A stretch of DNA of 64,000 bases from positions 1 through 64,000 of the forward strand of contig JADHSF010000003.1 in assembly GCA_016777005.1 (NCBI GenBank), read 5' to 3'. The position numbers were made by a program, and so were the translations under genes. The notes below the pieces were generated by a model. That model had not been told where the DNA came from. It saw nothing but the letters and a program-made list of their open reading frames with translations, and ran no database searches. How positions within the stretch are numbered: position 1 is the stretch's first letter; each line of letters begins with the position of its first letter. Below are positions 7,776 to 17,368 of this stretch, piece by piece. The DNA is from SAR86 cluster bacterium (GTDB taxonomy: Bacteria > Pseudomonadota > Gammaproteobacteria > Magnimaribacterales > Magnimaribacteraceae).

Positions 7776-8648
7776 ATGACAATCGTTCACAATTTTTCTA
7801 AATCTAGCAAGAGAAATCTCAGTATTTTGAGTATTTTTATTTTACTGATTACCCTTGCTTCGTGTTCTTCTAATGAAGAAATGCCCGATGAGAGGCTCAT
7901 AGAGAAAGAGCTTTATGATCAAGCCCAGACAAGACTGAAGAATGGAAGTTACTCAACAGCAATATATAGTTTGGAGGCTCTTGAATCGAGATTTCCATTT
8001 GGTAGATATGCAGAACAAGCCCAAGCAGAACTGATCTATGCCTATTATATGAATGCCCAATTTGAAGCCAGTCAATCTGCATCAGAACGTTTTATTAATC
8101 TTCATCCTAGACATGCGCATACGGGATACGCCTTTTACATGAAGGGCTTAGCTGCGTTTACAGATGATTCGGGTTTGTTCTCAAGATATTTCCAATCTGA
8201 TCTGGCCAAAAGAGAAATTGTAATGGCCCAAACTTCCTTTGATGAATTATCGGACTTCATTTCTAGATACCCAGGAAGCACATATGTTTCTCATGCTCAA
8301 CAAAGGATGATTTATCTAAAAAACCTGTTAGCGAATCATGAAATTTATGTAGCTGACTTTTATATGAAAAGAGGAGCGTACTTAGCAGCTATCGGTAGAG
8401 CTAAGTATGTAATAGAGCACCTGCCTAATACGCCACAAACTCCTTTTGCTCTTTCTATTTTAATAGAGGCTTATGAAATTCTTGGCTACGACGAATTAAG
8501 AACTACCAGCTTAGAAATACTTAACGCAAATTATCCTAACTTCGATTTAGAAAAGAACGAATCAGTCAAAGAACGTTCATGGACTAATGTACTTTCTCTA
8601 GGCTTACTGGGAAAAGAAGACATCAAAAAACCAGAAGCATCTAAATAA
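7776..8648 (+). CDS. bamD: Outer membrane assembly lipoprotein BamD
   Basis: Essential partner of BamA in inserting beta-barrel proteins. A hydrophobic signal ends in lipobox LASC with the lipidated Cys30. TPR-like helices follow: LIEKELYDQAQTRLKNGSYS, ESRFPFGRYAEQAQ, and further repeats through about residue 250. The 290-aa length is slightly above E. coli BamD. The place next to divergent rluD is diagnostic. No Shine-Dalgarno is seen; a TAGAAT element (7759-7764) lies only 11 bp before the ATG, suggesting a very short leader. Confidence 0.95.
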   Translation: MTIVHNFSKSSKRNLSILSIFILLITLASCSSNEEMPDERLIEKELYDQAQTRLKNGSYSTAIYSLEALESRFPFGRYAEQAQAELIYAYYMNAQFEASQSASERFINLHPRHAHTGYAFYMKGLAAFTDDSGLFSRYFQSDLAKREIVMAQTSFDELSDFISRYPGSTYVSHAQQRMIYLKNLLANHEIYVADFYMKRGAYLAAIGRAKYVIEHLPNTPQTPFALSILIEAYEILGYDELRTTSLEILNANYPNFDLEKNESVKERSWTNVLSLGLLGKEDIKKPEASK

Positions 8649-8650
8649 AA

Positions 8651-8854
8651 ATGTGGCAATTTCTGATTCTAGTTTCAGTAATAATATCAATATATATACT
8701 CACTAGAATAAGCAACCAATCTCGTAAGGCTATAAAAGGCAATCAAATAGAAACTGAAATAGTGAAATGTAAGGTATGTAATTTAAATATACCTCAAACA
8801 GAAGCAATTAGAGTCGATGGAGCATGGTGTTGCGCAAAAAAACATATTCATTAA
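8651..8854 (+). CDS. PP0621-like small membrane-anchored Cys/His protein
   Basis: A 67-residue protein with one N-terminal membrane segment (residues 2-18), a short basic linker and a C-terminal cluster: VKCKVCNLNIPQTEA followed by WCCAKKHIH. The CxxC and CC...HxH spacing suggests a small zinc ribbon facing the cytoplasm. It starts 2 bp after bamD, and similar short proteins follow bamD in pseudomonads (the PP0621 family), which supports the call. The function is unknown. Its TAA and the facing gene's TAA share the palindrome TTAA. Confidence 0.78.
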   Translation: MWQFLILVSVIISIYILTRISNQSRKAIKGNQIETEIVKCKVCNLNIPQTEAIRVDGAWCCAKKHIH

Positions 8855-11148
8855 AACCGATATCTTAGTTTAATTGTAAAATTATCAGCCTGGGGATTGT
8901 CCCAAGGTCTTTGATAGAGTTCGCTTAAGCTATCCTCTTCATCAGTGGCAACTATTCTTCCGCCTTTAGAATACACAACGTACAAATATGCCAATGGAAG
9001 AATCTCATATCTGTATCTTATCTGAAAAGCTAAGTCACTCAGAGTAATTGGGTCCAGAGATATTTCCGATGTAGCATTTAGATTTCCATCAAAACTTCCC
9101 AGGTACGCAATAGGATTTCTAGCAGTGAAAGCTACCATCTGAGCTTTTATCCTTAATTCATGCTTGTCATTTTTGAACCATTGCAATCCTGCCACGGTAG
9201 TTCTTTGTTTCTTATCATAGGTGCCTAATAAGTTTCCTTGTAACCAATTTAACCACTTATCTTCTTTATTATGCTGATGATAAATAGAGAAATTTAGGTT
9301 TCCATTGGGAGAGAAATCTATTTTCCCAGAATAGGTTGTTGCCCATCCTAATGTTGGGGCAAATTGATTACCTTGATCACGTTTCACCTCAAAGAAATAA
9401 TTGAAAAAATCTGCAGAGGGTCCTAAATATTGCAGTCTCGCACCGTAGCCAGCTGGCATATTTATAAAGGGTGCAGCTTCATCTCTTCTGGTTATCCAAA
9501 AGTCTTTTCCGGAGGTTCTAAAACTTGATTCAATTTCTATTCTTGAAGTGTTTTGGAAGGTATTAGTTACCTTTAAAGATAGCCCATCATTTGCCCGATC
9601 TCCAGATGCGTTTGTTTGAGTGGAATAACCAAACTCATATTCTCTGGACATGTTTATTGAATCAGTTTGAAAATCATTAACTTTATATTTACTTTGACCG
9701 GCAAGAATAGCCCAGTTATTGGTTACCAAATAACCCATGTCTCCCAAGTCTAAATCCTCATCGAAATAAAAGAACCCAATATCATGAGACAATTTTTTTG
9801 TTGGGGCAGCCACCAGCCTAAACCTGAAACCATTTCCCGTATCTCCGTCTATATTAGAATTAAGTAAAATGGTGGCTATTCTTGTCTTGTCATTTGGTCT
9901 ATATGCCAAATCAAAGGAATGAACGCTTGCGTCCCTTCCCAGCACAGGTCGCTCAACATAAGTCCCTAAATAACCAAGCGAATAATCAGTGCTAGTCTTT
10001 CGTCCCCTTATAGCAAAGAAATCTCTCCCTTGACTAAAATCTTGATCTGCTTCCGAAGCTGCAAGGACACCGAAATCAAAAGACTCTCCTTGTTGTGTAT
10101 ATCTCGCTGCTAAATCAATATCTGATGTCCCAAGTTTTGAGGAAGAGCAGATAGCTTGTAAGTTTTCTGCAAATTTAGAGCAATCATAATCCGGAGCAGC
10201 TCCAATTCTTCTTGTATTAATGACGTAAAAAAATTCGTATCCCTTGACGTTAAATAAAGAATGGTTTTCTGAAAAGAAAGGTCTTTTATCTGAGTAGAAA
10301 GTTTCATTTGCTGTGAAATTAACGACGAGTTCATCACTTTCAACTTGTCCAAAGTCAGGGTTAATGGCTATATTCAATTGCTTACCTGAATCTATTTTCC
10401 AGAAGATCTCTGCTCCTGTTTTTGTATCGACTTCTTCTGAAATCCTATCTTCGGTCACATTTATATAAGGAAAGAAATCTATTTTTGAGATGCTAGAATT
10501 CTTGAATTTCATCTCATTAAATGTAGACATGAACTCATCAGTGTAGGGATTACCTTTTATCGTGGCATTCACCTTGTATGCTCCGACAACCATTCTGTAA
10601 AACCCGAGCCTAACAGTCCTGTAATCTCCACTTTGCACTTTCATGGGTGCTATCGACCAAGGAATAAACATTTCTGCATACCAAACATCTTCGCCTATTG
10701 ATGTTGCAGAGTCCCAATCAGCGTCCCAGTCTGGATTACTTTCGTTCTCATTTTTGTATGTACCATCACCTTTAGATCCACTAACTGAAAGAGAAAAAGA
10801 ATAAGCTGAAATATTATCTCCATCGAAATCTATATTCACACCAACTCTATCTGCATTTGGTCTCTCTAGATCCCTTTCATGCTTATTGGATCTAATGCTT
10901 TCAGTGGATTGATAATTTATAAAACCAAAATAAATACCTTTCTCATCTTCCAGAACTAAAACTTTTTGGTCGTATTTAGGCTCTTCCAAAGTGAATGGAT
11001 ACACCTCATAAAATTTAGTTACTTCTCTAGCCTCATCCCATTCAGCCTCATTGATAATTCCATCTATCAGTATTTCAGAAAAGAAAAATGGACTTAAGAG
11101 AAGAAGGCAAAAGAAAGTTGATAATTGGAGAGTTGACTTTATAGGCAA
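8851..11148 (-). CDS. DUF5916 family protein with CBM9-like domain, copy 1
   Basis: Predicted exported 765-aa protein. A signal sequence (residues 1-24) precedes a CBM9-like sandwich (IDGIINEAEWDEA, WYAEMFIPWSIAPM) to about residue 200. The DUF5916 region follows, with FFPYINVTEDR, AGAEIFWKI, NPDFGQVESDELVVNF and SDKRPFFSENHSLF. The C-terminus KLRYRF ends in Phe after alternating hydrophobic strands, as in outer-membrane barrels. It starts at TTG with GAGGA 7 nt upstream. Last of three tandem paralogues; by eye closest to copy 2. The substrate is unknown: the CBM9 similarity hints at carbohydrate, but no catalytic motif was recognised. Confidence 0.85.
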   Translation of the reverse strand: MPIKSTLQLSTFFCLLLLSPFFFSEILIDGIINEAEWDEAREVTKFYEVYPFTLEEPKYDQKVLVLEDEKGIYFGFINYQSTESIRSNKHERDLERPNADRVGVNIDFDGDNISAYSFSLSVSGSKGDGTYKNENESNPDWDADWDSATSIGEDVWYAEMFIPWSIAPMKVQSGDYRTVRLGFYRMVVGAYKVNATIKGNPYTDEFMSTFNEMKFKNSSISKIDFFPYINVTEDRISEEVDTKTGAEIFWKIDSGKQLNIAINPDFGQVESDELVVNFTANETFYSDKRPFFSENHSLFNVKGYEFFYVINTRRIGAAPDYDCSKFAENLQAICSSSKLGTSDIDLAARYTQQGESFDFGVLAASEADQDFSQGRDFFAIRGRKTSTDYSLGYLGTYVERPVLGRDASVHSFDLAYRPNDKTRIATILLNSNIDGDTGNGFRFRLVAAPTKKLSHDIGFFYFDEDLDLGDMGYLVTNNWAILAGQSKYKVNDFQTDSINMSREYEFGYSTQTNASGDRANDGLSLKVTNTFQNTSRIEIESSFRTSGKDFWITRRDEAAPFINMPAGYGARLQYLGPSADFFNYFFEVKRDQGNQFAPTLGWATTYSGKIDFSPNGNLNFSIYHQHNKEDKWLNWLQGNLLGTYDKKQRTTVAGLQWFKNDKHELRIKAQMVAFTARNPIAYLGSFDGNLNATSEISLDPITLSDLAFQIRYRYEILPLAYLYVVYSKGGRIVATDEEDSLSELYQRPWDNPQADNFTIKLRYRF

Positions 11149-11238
11149 GCGTTTTCCTCGATTTAGTAGATCAGCATTCTAAAGATATAGGAAAAGAATA
11201 GCTATCTGAATTAGCACTTAAAGGGCTTACAGAAGTAA

Positions 11239-13548
11239 TCAGAATCTATACCTAACCTTAACGGTGAAATTGTCTGCTTGAGGATCGTTCCAAGGTCGCT
11301 GATATAGCTTACCTAAGTCATCTTCCTCATCAGTCTCTACGATTCTCCCTCCTTTGGAATACACTACATACAAATAAGCTAAGGGCATAATTTCATATCG
11401 ATATCTTATTTGAAAGGCTAAATCGCTTAAGTTTATTGCAGTCAGTGCAATATCACTTGCATTAAGATCTCCATAAGAGTCTCCTAAAACAGCCTTCGGA
11501 TTTGTTGCTAAGAATGAGACCATTTGAGCCTTTATTCTTAACTCATGCTTATCACCAACAAACCAATTAAAACCTGCAACGGTTGTTCTTTGTTTTTTGG
11601 TATAAACCCCCAAGAGATTATCTTGAAGCCAATTTACCCAACCATCTTCATCTAGATGCTGATAATAGAGTGAAAAGTCAATGTTATCACTCGGTGCAAA
11701 CTCAAGCTGTGTTGCATAAGAAGTAGCAAAACCGGAAGCTGAAGCCCATTGCGAGCCCTTTTCTCTCTTGGCCTCTAGAAAGTAATTAAAAAAGTCTTGA
11801 GAAGGTCCTTTAAAATTTAAAAGAGATCCGTAATTTTCGGGCCTTTTAATAAAAGGAGCTTCTATATTATTTCTTGTAATCCAAAAATCTTTTCCTGAAG
11901 TTCTGTAGAAGTTAGTAAATTCAAAAAAAGAAGTATTTTTGAAAGTAGATTTATAAGTAAGGTAAGTAAAATTCCAAGATTTATCTAAATCAGCATTACC
12001 TTCAACACCTACACCAAACTCAAGCTCGTTTGACTGTAGTATTGAAGTTGCACCAAAGTCTGTAAACTTAAATCCATTCTGCGCTCCTAAGAACATCCAG
12101 TTATTCAACATCTGATAACCCATATCGTTGATATCAATATTTTCATCAAAATAAAAAAGACCAATATCATGCCATCTTCCCTTTTTTGGAGAAGAGGAAA
12201 ACCTCAATCTAAATGCCTCTCCAGAGGAGCTATGGGGATTTACCAAACCTTGATCTATGCTTGAAGTCATGAAAACAGCATTCGTTCTAATTTTATCGGT
12301 TGGATTGTAAATCACATCTACGGCATGGACTTCTGCCTCTCGATCCAGAACAGGTCTTTCGGTATAAGTCCCAATATATCCTACTGATAAATTATCAGTA
12401 TTTTTTCGAGCCCTAACAGAATAAAAATCTCTGCCTTGACTGAATTGCTCATCCGCCTCCGAAGCTCCTAAAAAACCAAAGTCGATGGACTCATTTTGCT
12501 GAGTATATCTTACGGCATAATCTATATCAGAAATTCCTACTTGACTGGATTCACACAAATCTTTAAGAGAATCAGCATAACTTGAGCAGTTATAATCCGG
12601 CGAAGCGCCTATTCTTCTAGTGTTGATAAGATAAAAAAATGTGTAGCCTTTGACATCAAATAGAGAATGATTTTCTGAAAAGAAAGGTCTTTTATCAGAA
12701 TAAAATGTTTCGCTAGAAGTAAAATTTACTACCAGCTCATCACTTTCAACCTGTCCAAAATCAGGGTTGAGAGCTACATTAAGTTGTTTTCCAGCATCTA
12801 TTTTCCAGAATATTTCTGCACCAGCTTTTTTATTTGTTTCAGCCAAAACCCTGTCTTCGGTTAGATTAATGTAAGGAAAGAAATCTAGTTTTGAAACACT
12901 GTAATTATTGAATTCGTATTCATTAAACAAGGATAAGAACTTTTCAGTTCTTGGATTACCTTTGATGGTTGTATTAACTTTAAATTCACCTCTTAACCAC
13001 CTATAGAAAGAAAGCTTAACCTTCCTTTTATCGCCTTGTTGAGATTTCATGGGAGCTATACTCCAAGGTATGAATATTTCTGCATACCAAACACCTTCAC
13101 CTATACTTGTGCCATAACCCCAGTCAGAATCCCAGTCGTAGTTCACTTCATTTTCATTTCTAACGACATTATCAAGAATTGAACCGCCCGCAGAAACAGA
13201 AAAACCATAAGATAAGAGACCATCTCCATCAAAATCAATGGATACACCGACCATATCGGCATTAGCCATTTCGTCATCTCTTTGATGCTTTTGAGTTCTT
13301 ATACTCTCGTTAGATTGATAGGTTATAAAGCCAAAATAAATGCCCTTTTCATCTTCAAGAACCAAGACCTTTTGAGCTCCAGAAGCATCATTTAAAGTAA
13401 AGGGAAGGCTTTCATAATATTTGGTTATCTCATCTGCTTGAGACCATTCCTTTTCATTTAGCTTTCCATCAATAATGAGATCGAAAGAAAAAATGTGTGA
13501 AGATAAAAATACGAAAAGTAGTAATGAAAAAGTAAGCTTCCTATGCAA
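11239..13548 (-). CDS. DUF5916 family protein with CBM9-like domain, copy 2
   Basis: Middle paralogue, 769 aa, with the same architecture. A signal peptide (1-21) is followed by a CBM9-like part beginning IDGKLNEKEWSQA, then FFPYINLTEDR, AGAEIFWKIDAGKQLN, NPDFGQVESDELVVNF, and a barrel-like C-terminal half ending VRYRF. It begins with TTG, preceded by a strong AGGGG ribosome site 7 nt upstream whose G-run can pair with CCCC just before it. The conserved central block is also very similar to copy 1 at the DNA level, pointing to duplication or gene conversion. The function is unknown; transport or binding of a polymer or hydrophobic ligand is only a guess. Confidence 0.85.
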   Translation of the reverse strand: MHRKLTFSLLLFVFLSSHIFSFDLIIDGKLNEKEWSQADEITKYYESLPFTLNDASGAQKVLVLEDEKGIYFGFITYQSNESIRTQKHQRDDEMANADMVGVSIDFDGDGLLSYGFSVSAGGSILDNVVRNENEVNYDWDSDWGYGTSIGEGVWYAEIFIPWSIAPMKSQQGDKRKVKLSFYRWLRGEFKVNTTIKGNPRTEKFLSLFNEYEFNNYSVSKLDFFPYINLTEDRVLAETNKKAGAEIFWKIDAGKQLNVALNPDFGQVESDELVVNFTSSETFYSDKRPFFSENHSLFDVKGYTFFYLINTRRIGASPDYNCSSYADSLKDLCESSQVGISDIDYAVRYTQQNESIDFGFLGASEADEQFSQGRDFYSVRARKNTDNLSVGYIGTYTERPVLDREAEVHAVDVIYNPTDKIRTNAVFMTSSIDQGLVNPHSSSGEAFRLRFSSSPKKGRWHDIGLFYFDENIDINDMGYQMLNNWMFLGAQNGFKFTDFGATSILQSNELEFGVGVEGNADLDKSWNFTYLTYKSTFKNTSFFEFTNFYRTSGKDFWITRNNIEAPFIKRPENYGSLLNFKGPSQDFFNYFLEAKREKGSQWASASGFATSYATQLEFAPSDNIDFSLYYQHLDEDGWVNWLQDNLLGVYTKKQRTTVAGFNWFVGDKHELRIKAQMVSFLATNPKAVLGDSYGDLNASDIALTAINLSDLAFQIRYRYEIMPLAYLYVVYSKGGRIVETDEEDDLGKLYQRPWNDPQADNFTVKVRYRF

Positions 13549-13555
13549 TATATAT

Positions 13556-13567
13556 CCCCTAATGGGG
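13556..13567 (-). promoter_or_regulatory. Small GC hairpin over the ribosome site of DUF5916 copy 2
   Basis: CCCC and GGGG flank a 4-nt loop in the 42-bp gap upstream of copy 2. On the mRNA the GGGG arm is the ribosome-binding site, so the hairpin could limit initiation at the TTG start. The stem is only four G-C pairs, so the effect is uncertain. Confidence 0.3.
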
Positions 13568-13590
13568 TTGTAGTTTATAGATAGAGGGGG

Positions 13591-15870
13591 CTAAAATCTA
13601 TATCTAAGCTTCACAGTAAAATTTTCATCGGAAGGATCGTTCCAAGGTCTTCTGTAGAGGTTTGAAAGATCATCCTCTTCATCATTAAGAGAAACTCGAC
13701 CGCCCTTAGAATAGACTAAGTAAAGATAAGAAAGGGGCATGATTTCATATCTATACCTAATCTGAAATGCTAATTCGCTTATTGTGATAGGTGAGATAGA
13801 GATATTTGTTGGAGTTAACTTTCCTTTTTGATCTCCCAGAAAGGGAGTAGGATTTCTTCCAGTGAATGCTACAAGTTGAGCTTTTATTCTTAACTCGTGT
13901 TTATTGTTTTTAAACCACTCAAGTTCAAAAACGCTTGTTCTCTGTTTTCTTTCATAAGTAGCCAAGAGATTATCATCTAGCCAATTTAGCCAATTTTTTT
14001 CATCGGAATGATTATAGGACATGTTGAATGACAAGTTATCGCGAGGCATAAACTTGATAAAGGCTCTAGAAGAGTTTTTCCAACTTATCCCTGGAGAGTG
14101 CTCACTACCCTTACCTCTTTCAAACCTCAGACTGTAAATATATTTTGGCTTTCGTGGACCTGTAAATTCTATATAACCCCCCATCCCTTTGGGCATATCG
14201 ATATATGGGGCCAAAGAGGACCCTCTAGTGATTCTTGTATTTCTACCCGTACTTCTATAAAAAATTTCAGTTTTTACTTCGGACAGATCGATGAAATTTG
14301 TCTCAACTTTTAAAGCAAAGTTTGAAGATTCCCGAACTGTATCGGCATTAAATTTAGATCCATAACCAATCTCAAATAATCGAGATCTAAGAATAGACCC
14401 CTCTGAAAATCTTGTCTTTTTAAATTGGGTCCTACCATTAAACATTAAACGGTCATTTAATATGAGGTATCCCATATCATTAAGATCAAGCTGATCATCA
14501 TAGAAATTTATGCCTATACCAGAGGAAAAGTCTTGATCAGGATTGAACGAATAACCCAGCGTTAAACCGAAGCCGTCTTTATTATTTGCGTTTGAATGCA
14601 TCAAATTACCATTCATTCTGTGGACTTCAGATGGAAGATACGTAAAGTCCACTGAATTAACTTGGGCGTTCGTACCTAAAACAGGCTTATCAACATATGT
14701 ACCTAAATAACCATATTTAAAGTCATTAACCTTTGTATTGAGCCTTAGTGCATAAAAATCTCTACCTTGCGAAAATTTTTCATCCCTTTCAGATGCACTC
14801 ATAAAACCAAAATCTACTTCACCTTTTTGTGTATATTTCAAAGCAAAATCTATCTCACTTGTTTCTGCCTGAGTTTCTTCGCAATAATCCTCTAGATCAC
14901 CTTGTACTTCACAATCATAATCAGGTCTTCCACCTATCCTTCTCGTATTAATGATTCTATGCATCCGATCACTTACATCGAACATACTATTATTTTCAGC
15001 AAAGAATGGTCTCTTATCCGAATAGAAGGTTTCAAAAGCAGAGAAATTCACAACAACTTCATCGCTCTCAACTTGTCCAAAATCTGGATTCAATGTGAGG
15101 TTGAGCTGTTTACTTGTATTAATTTTCCAAAAAATTTCAGCTCCTGCTTTTGAGATTTGATCTGAATTAGCAATATCTTCAGTTAGGGTTGTATAGGGGA
15201 AAAAATCTAGTTTAGCTACTGAGTAGTTATTAAACTGATATTCGTCAAAAACAGATAAATAGACATTCTCATAGACGCTTCCTTTGATAGTTGAAAAGCC
15301 TCTTCCAATACCCATAAGCATCCTGTAAAAAGCCATTTTTACTTTTCTTTTTTCACCTGCTTGAGTTTTCATTGAGGCAATTGACCAAGGTATAAAAGTC
15401 TCTGAATACCAAACTCCGTCCTTAACCGAAGCGGCAGATTGCCAATCTGCATCCCAATCCCAATTTCTTTCCTTTTCGTCTGTTACTGTTGCATCACCGA
15501 CTGAACCGCTAGAAGAGATAAAAAAGTTATAACCTTCAATGCCATCACCATCAAAATCGATTACTATTCCATTTTTATCGGATAATGATCGCTCTTGGTC
15601 GCGCAAGTGATTATTTATTCTCATCGTTTCGTTGGTCTGGTAGTTTTTAAAACCAAAATACAGGCCATTCTCAGACTCAATAATCAATATTTGCGTTTTG
15701 TATTCGTTTACTTCTCTTAGAGAATATGGGTAAACCTCATAAAACTTATCAATCACTTGAGCTTTTTGCCATTCTGCCTCATCGAGCAAACCATCAATTT
15801 TTATCTCTGATTTAAGAGAAAATGACAATACCAAACTCAGGATAAGACCTGTAAGTTTAAAATAGCGCAT
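13591..15870 (-). CDS. DUF5916 family protein with CBM9-like domain, copy 3
   Basis: First-transcribed and most divergent paralogue, 759 aa. A signal peptide (1-21) leads into IDGLLDEAEWQKA, then WYSETFIPWSIASM, FFPYTTLTED, AGAEIFWKI, NPDFGQVESDEVVVNF and SDKRPFFAENNSMF. The C-terminal RYRYEIMPLSYLYLVYSKGG and terminal LRYRF are shared by all three copies, supporting a common outer-membrane barrel. The ATG directly follows the TAA of the DUF4399 gene, with no gap, so the two are translationally linked. An acidic DFDGDG stretch in the CBM9-like part could bind calcium (inference). Confidence 0.85.
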   Translation of the reverse strand: MRYFKLTGLILSLVLSFSLKSEIKIDGLLDEAEWQKAQVIDKFYEVYPYSLREVNEYKTQILIIESENGLYFGFKNYQTNETMRINNHLRDQERSLSDKNGIVIDFDGDGIEGYNFFISSSGSVGDATVTDEKERNWDWDADWQSAASVKDGVWYSETFIPWSIASMKTQAGEKRKVKMAFYRMLMGIGRGFSTIKGSVYENVYLSVFDEYQFNNYSVAKLDFFPYTTLTEDIANSDQISKAGAEIFWKINTSKQLNLTLNPDFGQVESDEVVVNFSAFETFYSDKRPFFAENNSMFDVSDRMHRIINTRRIGGRPDYDCEVQGDLEDYCEETQAETSEIDFALKYTQKGEVDFGFMSASERDEKFSQGRDFYALRLNTKVNDFKYGYLGTYVDKPVLGTNAQVNSVDFTYLPSEVHRMNGNLMHSNANNKDGFGLTLGYSFNPDQDFSSGIGINFYDDQLDLNDMGYLILNDRLMFNGRTQFKKTRFSEGSILRSRLFEIGYGSKFNADTVRESSNFALKVETNFIDLSEVKTEIFYRSTGRNTRITRGSSLAPYIDMPKGMGGYIEFTGPRKPKYIYSLRFERGKGSEHSPGISWKNSSRAFIKFMPRDNLSFNMSYNHSDEKNWLNWLDDNLLATYERKQRTSVFELEWFKNNKHELRIKAQLVAFTGRNPTPFLGDQKGKLTPTNISISPITISELAFQIRYRYEIMPLSYLYLVYSKGGRVSLNDEEDDLSNLYRRPWNDPSDENFTVKLRYRF

Positions 15871-16263
15871 TTAATCTATAACAGTGATATTTATTTTTTT
15901 TGAGATTATCGGGGAATCATGGGGAGTATGCGTCATATCTCCAAGAACAAGTTGCATAGAATAGTTACCTGGCAATAACTCAATAAGTGATTCAGTCTGC
16001 CCTCCACCAAAATGGATATGGTTTGGTGAAGAAGGAATAGATTTCTTAAAATCTATTTTGTCTACATCAATCAATAGATGATGATGTCCTGTGTTCTCTC
16101 TATCGGTTCCGGCTGGAGCTATACCTTTTCCAGAAAGTCCAAACTGGACAAGAAACGGTGACTGCACTTGGTCTCCATCATTGAGGTTAATAAAGTAGAC
16201 CTTTGCTTCAGAAGAAATAAAAGAAGATAAAAAAAGAAATAAGGAGAAGATAAAATGTTTCAT
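15871..16263 (-). CDS. DUF4399 periplasmic protein
   Basis: A 130-residue exported protein with a signal peptide (1-20) and a small beta-sandwich-like core. Three conserved His groups stand out: GHHHLLID (H60-H62), NHIHFGGGQTE (H82, H84) and GDMTHTPH (H112, H115). This is the signature of the DUF4399 family, whose function is not established; the His clusters suggest metal binding. It abuts the downstream DUF5916 gene and lies 1 bp after the flavin reductase gene, so the five genes probably form one operon and the protein may serve the DUF5916 proteins in the periplasm. Confidence 0.82.
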   Translation of the reverse strand: MKHFIFSLFLFLSSFISSEAKVYFINLNDGDQVQSPFLVQFGLSGKGIAPAGTDRENTGHHHLLIDVDKIDFKKSIPSSPNHIHFGGGQTESLIELLPGNYSMQLVLGDMTHTPHDSPIISKKINITVID

Positions 16264-16264
16264 A

Positions 16265-16741
16265 TTAATTTAAGTACTTACCTGATCCGTAGAGAAGCGG
16301 TTGAAGATCACTGTTATTCAATACCTTTGAAACTCTGCCAATCACAATCGTATGACTAGAATGATCTATTAAATCTGTACATTCACAAAATAAAGCAGAT
16401 AAGGATTCTTGATTATAAATATAACTGCCGTCTTCATTCCAGGCATTATTCTGAAACCTTTTTTCGCCCTCTTCAATATTACTGCATATTTCTGCTATAT
16501 CTTTCTGCTCACTGGATAATGTGTTAATACAAAAAGAAGAATCAACTGAAATAATGCCATGAATCGAAGCTTCTTTATTGATGCATACAAGCATGGAAGG
16601 AGGGTCTACAGACAATGATGTAACAGATATTGCGGTCATAGCATGTCTTGCGATATCCGATTTAGCAGAGATAACACACACAGTTGATGTTGAACCACGC
16701 ATGGAAGTTAAGAAGTTTTTCTTGAGATCTGATTCTTTCAT
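16265..16741 (-). CDS. Flavin reductase family protein (FMN-binding split barrel)
   Basis: Resembles the NAD(P)H:flavin oxidoreductase partners of two-component monooxygenases (HpaC/RutF type). Family features are an N-terminal MRGSTSTVCVISAK, the flavin-contact segment AMTAISVTSLSVDPPSMLVCIN, and FCINTLSSEQ. The 158-aa length fits. It is the first gene of the minus-strand operon leading into DUF4399 and three DUF5916 genes, and it is divergent from rsmD. No monooxygenase partner is encoded nearby, so its electron acceptor is unknown; a cytoplasmic flavin reductase upstream of exported proteins is unexplained. Confidence 0.82.
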   Translation of the reverse strand: MKESDLKKNFLTSMRGSTSTVCVISAKSDIARHAMTAISVTSLSVDPPSMLVCINKEASIHGIISVDSSFCINTLSSEQKDIAEICSNIEEGEKRFQNNAWNEDGSYIYNQESLSALFCECTDLIDHSSHTIVIGRVSKVLNNSDLQPLLYGSGKYLN

Positions 16742-16804: not shown

Positions 16805-17368
16805 ATGGTAAAAAGACAAGCAGCAACAAGAATTATTGGTGGGAAATATAAAGGAACTAAACTAGTATTTAAGCCAAACAAGACGCTGCGACCAACAGAA
16901 AGCAAGACTAAAGAAACTCTTTTTAATTGGCTTCTAAATGATTTAGATAAAAAAAAATGCTTAGATATGTTTGCTGGGACAGGTTCACTTGGACTAGAGG
17001 CTATTTCAAGAGGAGCTAGTAATGTTGTTTTCATCGAGAAACAATTAAAACTTTCACAATTAATTATTGATATCACTAAAAGACTTAAAATAGAAAAAGT
17101 GTCTAGAGTAATAAATACAAACTCAATTTCATTTGATTATAAAACTTTGAAACAGAAGTTTGATGTCATTTTTCTAGATCCCCCATTTCATGAAAATCTT
17201 ATTCCAAAGTCTTTAGAAGTAATTTGCAACCAAAATCTTTTAAATGTAGGAGGGTTAATCTATGTTGAATGTGAAAAGGATTTAAAATTAGATCTTTCTA
17301 AATTCAATCTAACTGCATTGAAGGAATCCAAAGGTGGGGAAACGAAATACTATTTATATGAAGGCTAG
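16805..17368 (+). CDS. rsmD: 16S rRNA (guanine(966)-N2)-methyltransferase
   Basis: SAM-dependent methyltransferase of 16S rRNA G966. The N-terminal RIIGGKYKGTKL and RPTESKTKETLFNWL are family signatures. The SAM-binding motif is LDMFAGTGSLGLEA, and the catalytic N6/N2-type motif is DPPF in FLDPPFHENL. The length of 187 aa is normal. In many gammaproteobacteria it neighbours ftsY or coaD; here it is followed by a small membrane protein whose ATG lies inside its last codons. Confidence 0.94.
   Translation: MVKRQAATRIIGGKYKGTKLVFKPNKTLRPTESKTKETLFNWLLNDLDKKKCLDMFAGTGSLGLEAISRGASNVVFIEKQLKLSQLIIDITKRLKIEKVSRVINTNSISFDYKTLKQKFDVIFLDPPFHENLIPKSLEVICNQNLLNVGGLIYVECEKDLKLDLSKFNLTALKESKGGETKYYLYEG

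Follow-up and report, generated by a model that had tools for sequence, protein, structure and literature searches.

A genomic slot for exchangeable alleles of DUF5916, a family of predicted outer-membrane barrels, in SAR86 bacteria

SAR86 bacteria are among the commonest bacteria of the surface ocean, and to our knowledge little is known of how they interact with dissolved organic matter and predators. The window considered here is a stretch of 64,000 nucleotides from a draft genome of the SAR86-type order (1.2 Mb, 51 contigs, 82.6% complete), in which three tandem genes of the DUF5916 family follow a flavin reductase gene and a gene for a DUF4399 protein. What might three large proteins of one family do side by side at this place, and do the two smaller genes belong with them? 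Part of the answer is not visible from the sequence of the window alone and comes from its relatives: the DUF5916 slot exchanges alleles between relatives by whole-gene replacement. We lean towards reading it as an exchangeable outer-membrane channel locus of SAR86, probably for glycans as putative ligands. The features on which the argument depends are as follows.

8851..11148, minus strand: DUF5916 paralogue A, 765 aa, TTG start, ends KLRYRF; signal peptide, CBM9-type domain and barrel predicted by homology to C
11239..13548, minus strand: DUF5916 paralogue B, 769 aa, begins with TTG preceded by AGGGG, ends KVRYRF
13591..15870, minus strand: DUF5916 paralogue C, 759 aa, ATG start, ends KLRYRF; the position at which alleles are exchanged among relatives
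15223..15807, minus strand: predicted CBM9-type domain of C, model residues 22-216 (7nwn, Z 17.5; 1i82_A, Z 17.4)
13603..15213, minus strand: predicted barrel of C, 24 strands over model residues 220-756, including the long family-hallmark loop at 261-339
15871..16263, minus strand: DUF4399 protein, 130 aa; signal peptide, predicted Ig/FnIII-like sandwich, invariant His 60, 61, 62, 84 and 112
16265..16741, minus strand: flavin reductase (PF01613), 158 aa, no signal peptide seen
7776..8648, plus strand: bamD, conserved, bounds the slot on its far side
16805..17368, plus strand: rsmD-like gene (PF03602), conserved, bounds the slot on its near side

The five genes lie nearly without gaps on one strand, in the order flavin reductase, DUF4399, C, B and A; the initial annotation had both the coordinates and this order exactly. 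Paralogues A, B and C score 94.8, 101.2 and 100.3 bits, respectively, against the Pfam profile of DUF5916 (PF19313), all above its curated cut-off of 22.6; besides this profile match they share the PDFGQ and KRPFF-type motifs, which are kept across 78 aligned members of the family. Their pairwise identities are 50% (A and C), 48% (B and C) and 61% (A and B). The DUF4399 protein matches PF14347 with 115.9 bits (E 1.1e-33, cut-off 28), and the flavin reductase matches PF01613 (E 1.7e-29); its matches to the reductases of NCBIfam are all far under their cut-offs.

DUF5916 is present in 38 of the 41 genomes of the order containing the window genome and is sparse in the class, where 19 of 369 genomes carry it (15 of the 365 that are not SAR86); DUF4399 occurs in 83 of the 369. 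The important surface function once proposed for these proteins is reasonable because they are near-universal in the order yet sparse in the class, and because they are predicted to be outer-membrane barrels. The four family codes of the order (f1 to f4) agree with four SAR86 families described in PMC11582366. All 18 f1 loci that a single contig covers completely have their DUF5916 genes flanked by rsmD and the flavin reductase on one side and by bamD and rluD on the other, in three copies (6 loci), two (10) or one (2). The f2 and f4 genomes that have DUF5916 carry it elsewhere, outside the slot. A tree of the proteins, from which fragments were left out, separates a C-type, a B-type, an A-type and a dispersed type, and the A-type is limited to G000, G001 and G014 of the genus.

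Exchange at the slot is seen among close relatives. Between G015 and G005, compared over 299 kb, the 289 reciprocal best hits have a median identity of 96%, and the first DUF5916 gene, at 57%, is the lowest of the 281 that are syntenic. The only other syntenic gene of this pair below 70% encodes a 241-aa probable lipoprotein (61%, G015:C1:16714-17436). Sixteen of the 19 genomes of the genus entered a comparison in pairs; G002 and G012 had no DUF5916 match, and the near side of the slot is absent from the contig of G007. Among the 18 close pairs, those with RsmD at least 90% identical, 12 have first DUF5916 genes that are 57-63% identical between flanks of 87-100%. Three allele classes coexist in six genomes (G005 with G016, G010 with G015, and G008 with G017), and G016 and G017 differ also in the last DUF5916 gene and in copy number (three versus two). 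Across the whole comparison, the identity of the first gene correlates with that of the flanks with a Pearson coefficient of 0.19 (120 pairs) and that of the last gene with 0.52 (91 pairs), against 0.91-0.96 for six flank genes. The flavin reductase and DUF4399 follow the flanks, whereas DUF5916 does not.

The edges of the divergent segments are sharp. Nucleotide identity is 55-66% inside the first gene, with 0.80 in the first interval of the gene, and 92-98% in most flanking intervals. When G015 is compared with G005 and G016, the 5' edge lies about 140 nt into the first gene and the 3' edge at the gene end; between the three-gene array of G016 and the two-gene array of G017, one edge falls barely inside the first gene and the other some 60 nt short of where the last one ends. 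The synonymous distance between G005 and G015 is about 2 in C, that is, saturated, while it is 0.27 in BamD and 0.26 in Rho, which argues for replacement rather than fast change of the protein. As a control, the six genomes that swap alleles were compared for LptD, which is 90-97% identical in each of their 15 pairs. A second control with TonB receptors (the 30 best loci) is uneven: some best-hit pairs are near 30%, presumably from missing orthologues and not from swaps, and the other pairs are 80-100% identical, so some receptors vary too.

Similar alleles are also found in genomes that are otherwise far apart. C is 91% identical between G000 and G013, while the flavin reductase (65%), DUF4399 (71%), RsmD (66%) and PgeF (56%) are much lower, and the synonymous difference is 0.59 in C versus 0.77 in Rho. 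In 37 of 101 distant pairs C is more than 10 points above the flavin reductase, a count to be taken as an upper limit because part of it may come from slower protein change in C. The dispersed type, which occupies the slot in genus g6 and lies elsewhere in five genomes of genus g1, is 86-89% identical between them, as compared with 86-87% for Rho, 58-61% for BamD and 38-47% for the flavin reductase. The dispersed copies of these five genomes are at L040, L043, L048, L050 and L055; the copy in L048 adjoins genes for an FAD-oxidoreductase and a tyrosine phosphatase (Y_phosphatase3), which give no clear functional clue.

What is being exchanged was approached through an AlphaFold2 model of paralogue C (mean pLDDT 89.6, pTM 0.84), built from an alignment of 78 proteins (75 of the 85 full-length DUF5916 rows and the three proteins of the window). 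According to the model, C would consist of a signal peptide, a CBM9 domain and a large outer-membrane barrel of 24 strands. Residues 22-216 match the CBM9 structure 7nwn (Z 17.5, rmsd 2.8, 161 aligned) and also 1i82_A (Z 17.4), and five Trp of this domain are invariant across the 78 sequences. Residues 221-759 match the barrel of MtrB (6r2q_B; Z 16.9, rmsd 4.7, 416 aligned), followed by pilus ushers and TonB receptors. The strands, counted on the secondary-structure line of the model, are even in number and are joined by inner turns of 2-8 residues and outer loops of 2-79, and the protein ends in Phe. Their hydrophobic alternation (2.11, versus 1.12 in shuffled sequences) was reached by none of 500 shuffles; taken singly, 12 of the 24 strands exceed the 90th percentile of the shuffles. 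As modelled, C has the amphipathic strands in even number, the short inner turns and the C-terminal aromatic residue of an outer-membrane beta-barrel. The CBM9-like domain and barrel that the initial annotation had read from the sequence are in this way supported for C by the model, which is barrel-shaped, and by its structural matches. The longest outer loop (261-339, 79 residues, after the third strand) carries the hallmark motifs of the family, and part of it has the lowest model confidence within the mature protein. The Pfam domains of TonB-dependent transporters are absent: the scan found neither plug nor barrel, only PF19313 and one row below its cut-off. A sequence search of the PDB gave no match for C, and one with the DUF5916 profile gave a single chance-level row.

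Known systems share only parts of this architecture. CBM9 is known as a module on xylanase; here the fold is shared by residues 22-216 of C, is fused to a predicted outer-membrane barrel and lacks a Pfam CBM9 match. The barrel of MtrB has 26 strands. It matches the whole barrel of C over 416 residues at 11% identity, whereas C has 24 predicted strands and no heme partner was seen in the window.

On the reading that we favour, each DUF5916 protein would be secreted and form a large outer-membrane barrel, some 24 strands in all. The N-terminal CBM9 domain would lie, given an N-in topology, on the periplasmic side, and the conserved 79-residue loop would probably be folded back on the barrel. Passage would be selective for oligosaccharide-like or other polyhydroxylated compounds, which the CBM9 domain may take over from the pore. 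As suggested by relatives in which the slot lacks DUF5916, the flavin reductase and DUF4399 would have been there before DUF5916 arrived. Homologous recombination between the conserved ends of the genes swaps one gene, or the whole array, for a deeply diverged allele while the start and the neighbours stay, as the identity profiles show. Since the 5' edge of recombination lies inside the gene and keeps the start site and signal peptide, an incoming allele would be expressed at once. Exchange would alter the ligand spectrum or the surface identity and keep the channel; it is also possible that the copies are specialised for related, putative ligands, as was first proposed.

The starts and spacing of the genes bear on how such a locus may be expressed. 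The flavin reductase stop lies 1 bp before DUF4399 and the DUF4399 stop abuts the ATG of C (0 bp), as the earlier description had it, and 42 and 90 bp separate C from B and B from A. From this spacing it is plausible that the five genes form one operon, as had been claimed; a promoter scan of the locus found fewer sites than in shuffles. The abutting stop and ATG suggest translational coupling of the first copy. The first 20 codons of B and A hold no ATG, and their TTG starts have a good ribosome-binding site; over the loci of the window and its relatives, the first DUF5916 copy begins with ATG in 22 of 26 cases and downstream copies with TTG in 18 of 24, which suggests weaker expression of the latter. 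An intergenic hairpin over the ribosome-binding site of B is not kept among relatives. At the other end of the array, a 67-aa reading frame (8651-8854, plus strand) follows bamD; it has a zinc-ribbon-like end (CxxC...CC...H), is convergent to paralogue A and overlaps its stop by four bases, and a search of 26 loci of relatives with a strict pattern gave a match in 2.

Several observations weigh against a glycan channel of this kind. Pfam annotation of neighbouring genes (44 of 79 listed for SAR86 and unplaced loci, 80 of 90 listed for non-SAR86 loci) gave, among the 25 commonest families listed, no recurring partner beyond local synteny, such as 5-formyltetrahydrofolate cyclo-ligase, threonine dehydratase and a SET-domain protein; no glycan enzyme or transporter recurs beside DUF5916 among these neighbours. 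The fold match is the sole ground for the CBM9 assignment, and a Pfam scan returned no CBM9 family row at E <=1, although distant members can escape it. The model itself is built from 78 sequences for one paralogue and contains no membrane, and part of the genomes exist as drafts, although the assembly of G005 is a single contig of 1.59 Mb. The predicted outer loops, in addition, are no more variable than the strands or turns among 18 C alleles (mean pairwise identity 0.62 in outer loops, 0.67 in strands, 0.58 in inner turns and 0.68 in CBM9). A very large barrel filled by a loop could, finally, export or assemble something instead.

The strongest competitor, which we consider unlikely but worth weighing, is that DUF5916 is a surface target recognised by phages or protists, so that exchange is selected for changed sensitivity and transport is secondary. 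The coexistence of three discrete allele classes in six close genomes fits this, as does the rank of the first DUF5916 gene as the most divergent of 281 syntenic pairs, and replacement islands of aquatic microbes, typically encoding surface structures, are explained likewise in PMC4033161. The loop hypervariability expected of a phage-receptor arms race, however, is not found in the identities given above, where the CBM9 domain varies as much as the outer loops. Within allele classes, dN/dS is 0.04-0.11 (A, B and C), a clear sign of functional constraint on the whole protein. A simple arms race is not supported because selection is purifying and the outer loops are not hypervariable. Viral contigs and phage records contained no relative of DUF5916, which bears on carriage by viruses only and not on recognition. 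Exchange may serve ligand range or surface identity; the present data fit both.

It is improbable that the five genes work as a single functional unit, as the original description of the locus implied, for example with the flavin reductase, a metal-binding DUF4399 and DUF5916 together taking up and reducing a metal or cofactor. Their tight spacing speaks for it, as does the position of DUF4399: of the 22 f1 genomes with a visible flavin-reductase side, 20 have it between the flavin reductase and DUF5916, and so do 2 of 5 f3 genomes. The label His-rich was fair: DUF4399 has 8 His in 130 aa, of which five (60, 61, 62, 84 and 112) are invariant in 42 aligned sequences, and two further His are kept in 93% and 83%. 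The flavin reductase-DUF4399 pair nevertheless occurs without DUF5916 at the same rsmD/bamD slot in G026, G028 and G034; G026 has the order rsmD, flavin reductase, DUF4399 and bamD, and in the other two different genes occupy the place of DUF5916. In the f2 genome G028 these are a TetR regulator, a membrane-fusion protein and an RND pump, between DUF4399 and bamD (L193, 7507-12252). None of 40 non-SAR86 DUF5916 loci (L121-L125, L127-L161) has either partner, and in a sample of 30 DUF4399 loci across the class neither flavin reductase nor DUF5916 lies within 1.5 kb. The neighbourhood is thus conserved in part of SAR86 and not outside it, and, as already noted, the two smaller genes evolve with the flanks and DUF5916 does not. 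Because the slot occurs without DUF5916 and the link is absent outside SAR86, the set is, on the evidence of gene order, a local arrangement inside SAR86. The flavin reductase and DUF4399 are probably neighbours by position that serve something else. Metal loading by DUF4399 is possible given its invariant His, and nothing connects it to DUF5916. A function for DUF4399 could not be named from its predicted Ig/FnIII-like sandwich (mean pLDDT 78), whose best structural match (Z 9.5) is too generic, and a PDB sequence search gave one weak row. One lead comes from PMC13311259, where a Phaeobacter DUF4399 protein is predicted to be in complex with a member of the DoxX family.

Very little speaks for an ordinary family of vertically inherited paralogues that evolve fast and without exchange: DUF5916 proteins are old and diverse, but synonymous saturation confined to the gene, sharp edges and excess identity between distant species contradict it unless the assemblies are wrong. 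Least credible is an electron conduit, in which an MtrB-like barrel and a heme-binding, DOMON-like domain would move electrons over the outer membrane in a flavin-linked way: the best match to the barrel is MtrB, the heme-bearing ethylbenzene dehydrogenase subunit 2ivf_C matches the N-terminal domain (Z 14.0) and a flavin reductase gene lies close by, but the five proteins contain no CxxCH, no protein of at least 100 aa in the window has two or more, the CBM9-type domain has no conserved His and only Met167 at 0.91, and MtrB family matches in G000, G005 and G015 are marginal, that in G005 lying inside a TonB receptor. An MtrAB porin-cytochrome conduit was rejected since neither a multi-heme cytochrome partner within the window nor a conserved heme ligand was found.

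Among known phenomena, the slot comes closest to the replacement flexible genomic islands of aquatic microbes, which PMC4033161 describes as having the same position and function, diverged content, homologous recombination and a surface product, with peaks of synonymous substitution at the island boundaries. The DUF5916 slot is alike in position, function, diverged alleles, recombination edges and predicted surface product; the islands of that account, however, are multi-gene, whereas the exchange unit here is smaller, either one gene or an array with two or three homologous barrels. The hypervariable outer-membrane region of SAR86 IIIa (PMC3569297), compared in that paper with islands that may change how cells interact with predators and phages, shares surface variability in SAR86 with the slot, but holds glycosyltransferases and similar genes, and no DUF5916 locus is mentioned. 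The literature searched did not name the DUF5916 family, its SAR86 part had nothing on the slot, and a search for CBM9 joined to a barrel returned unrelated work only. DUF5916 is thus without a described function in that literature, and the exchange locus is a variant of the known replacement phenomenon.

We tentatively extend this to a cassette slot for a new channel class, a 24-strand barrel that carries its own CBM9 domain in the periplasm, whose ligand-recognising alleles would be swapped between species and genera by recombination at the conserved gene ends while the coupled start site is kept. Near-universal in SAR86, arrayed there and exchanged at one slot, and sparse elsewhere in the class, this core barrel family offers a concrete target, as single-cell genomes could be used to pair its alleles with substrates or phages. 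The family is widespread outside SAR86 too, and a fold and topology would help many annotations. If the cassette reading is true, a streamlined bacterium could switch substrate or surface type gene by gene.

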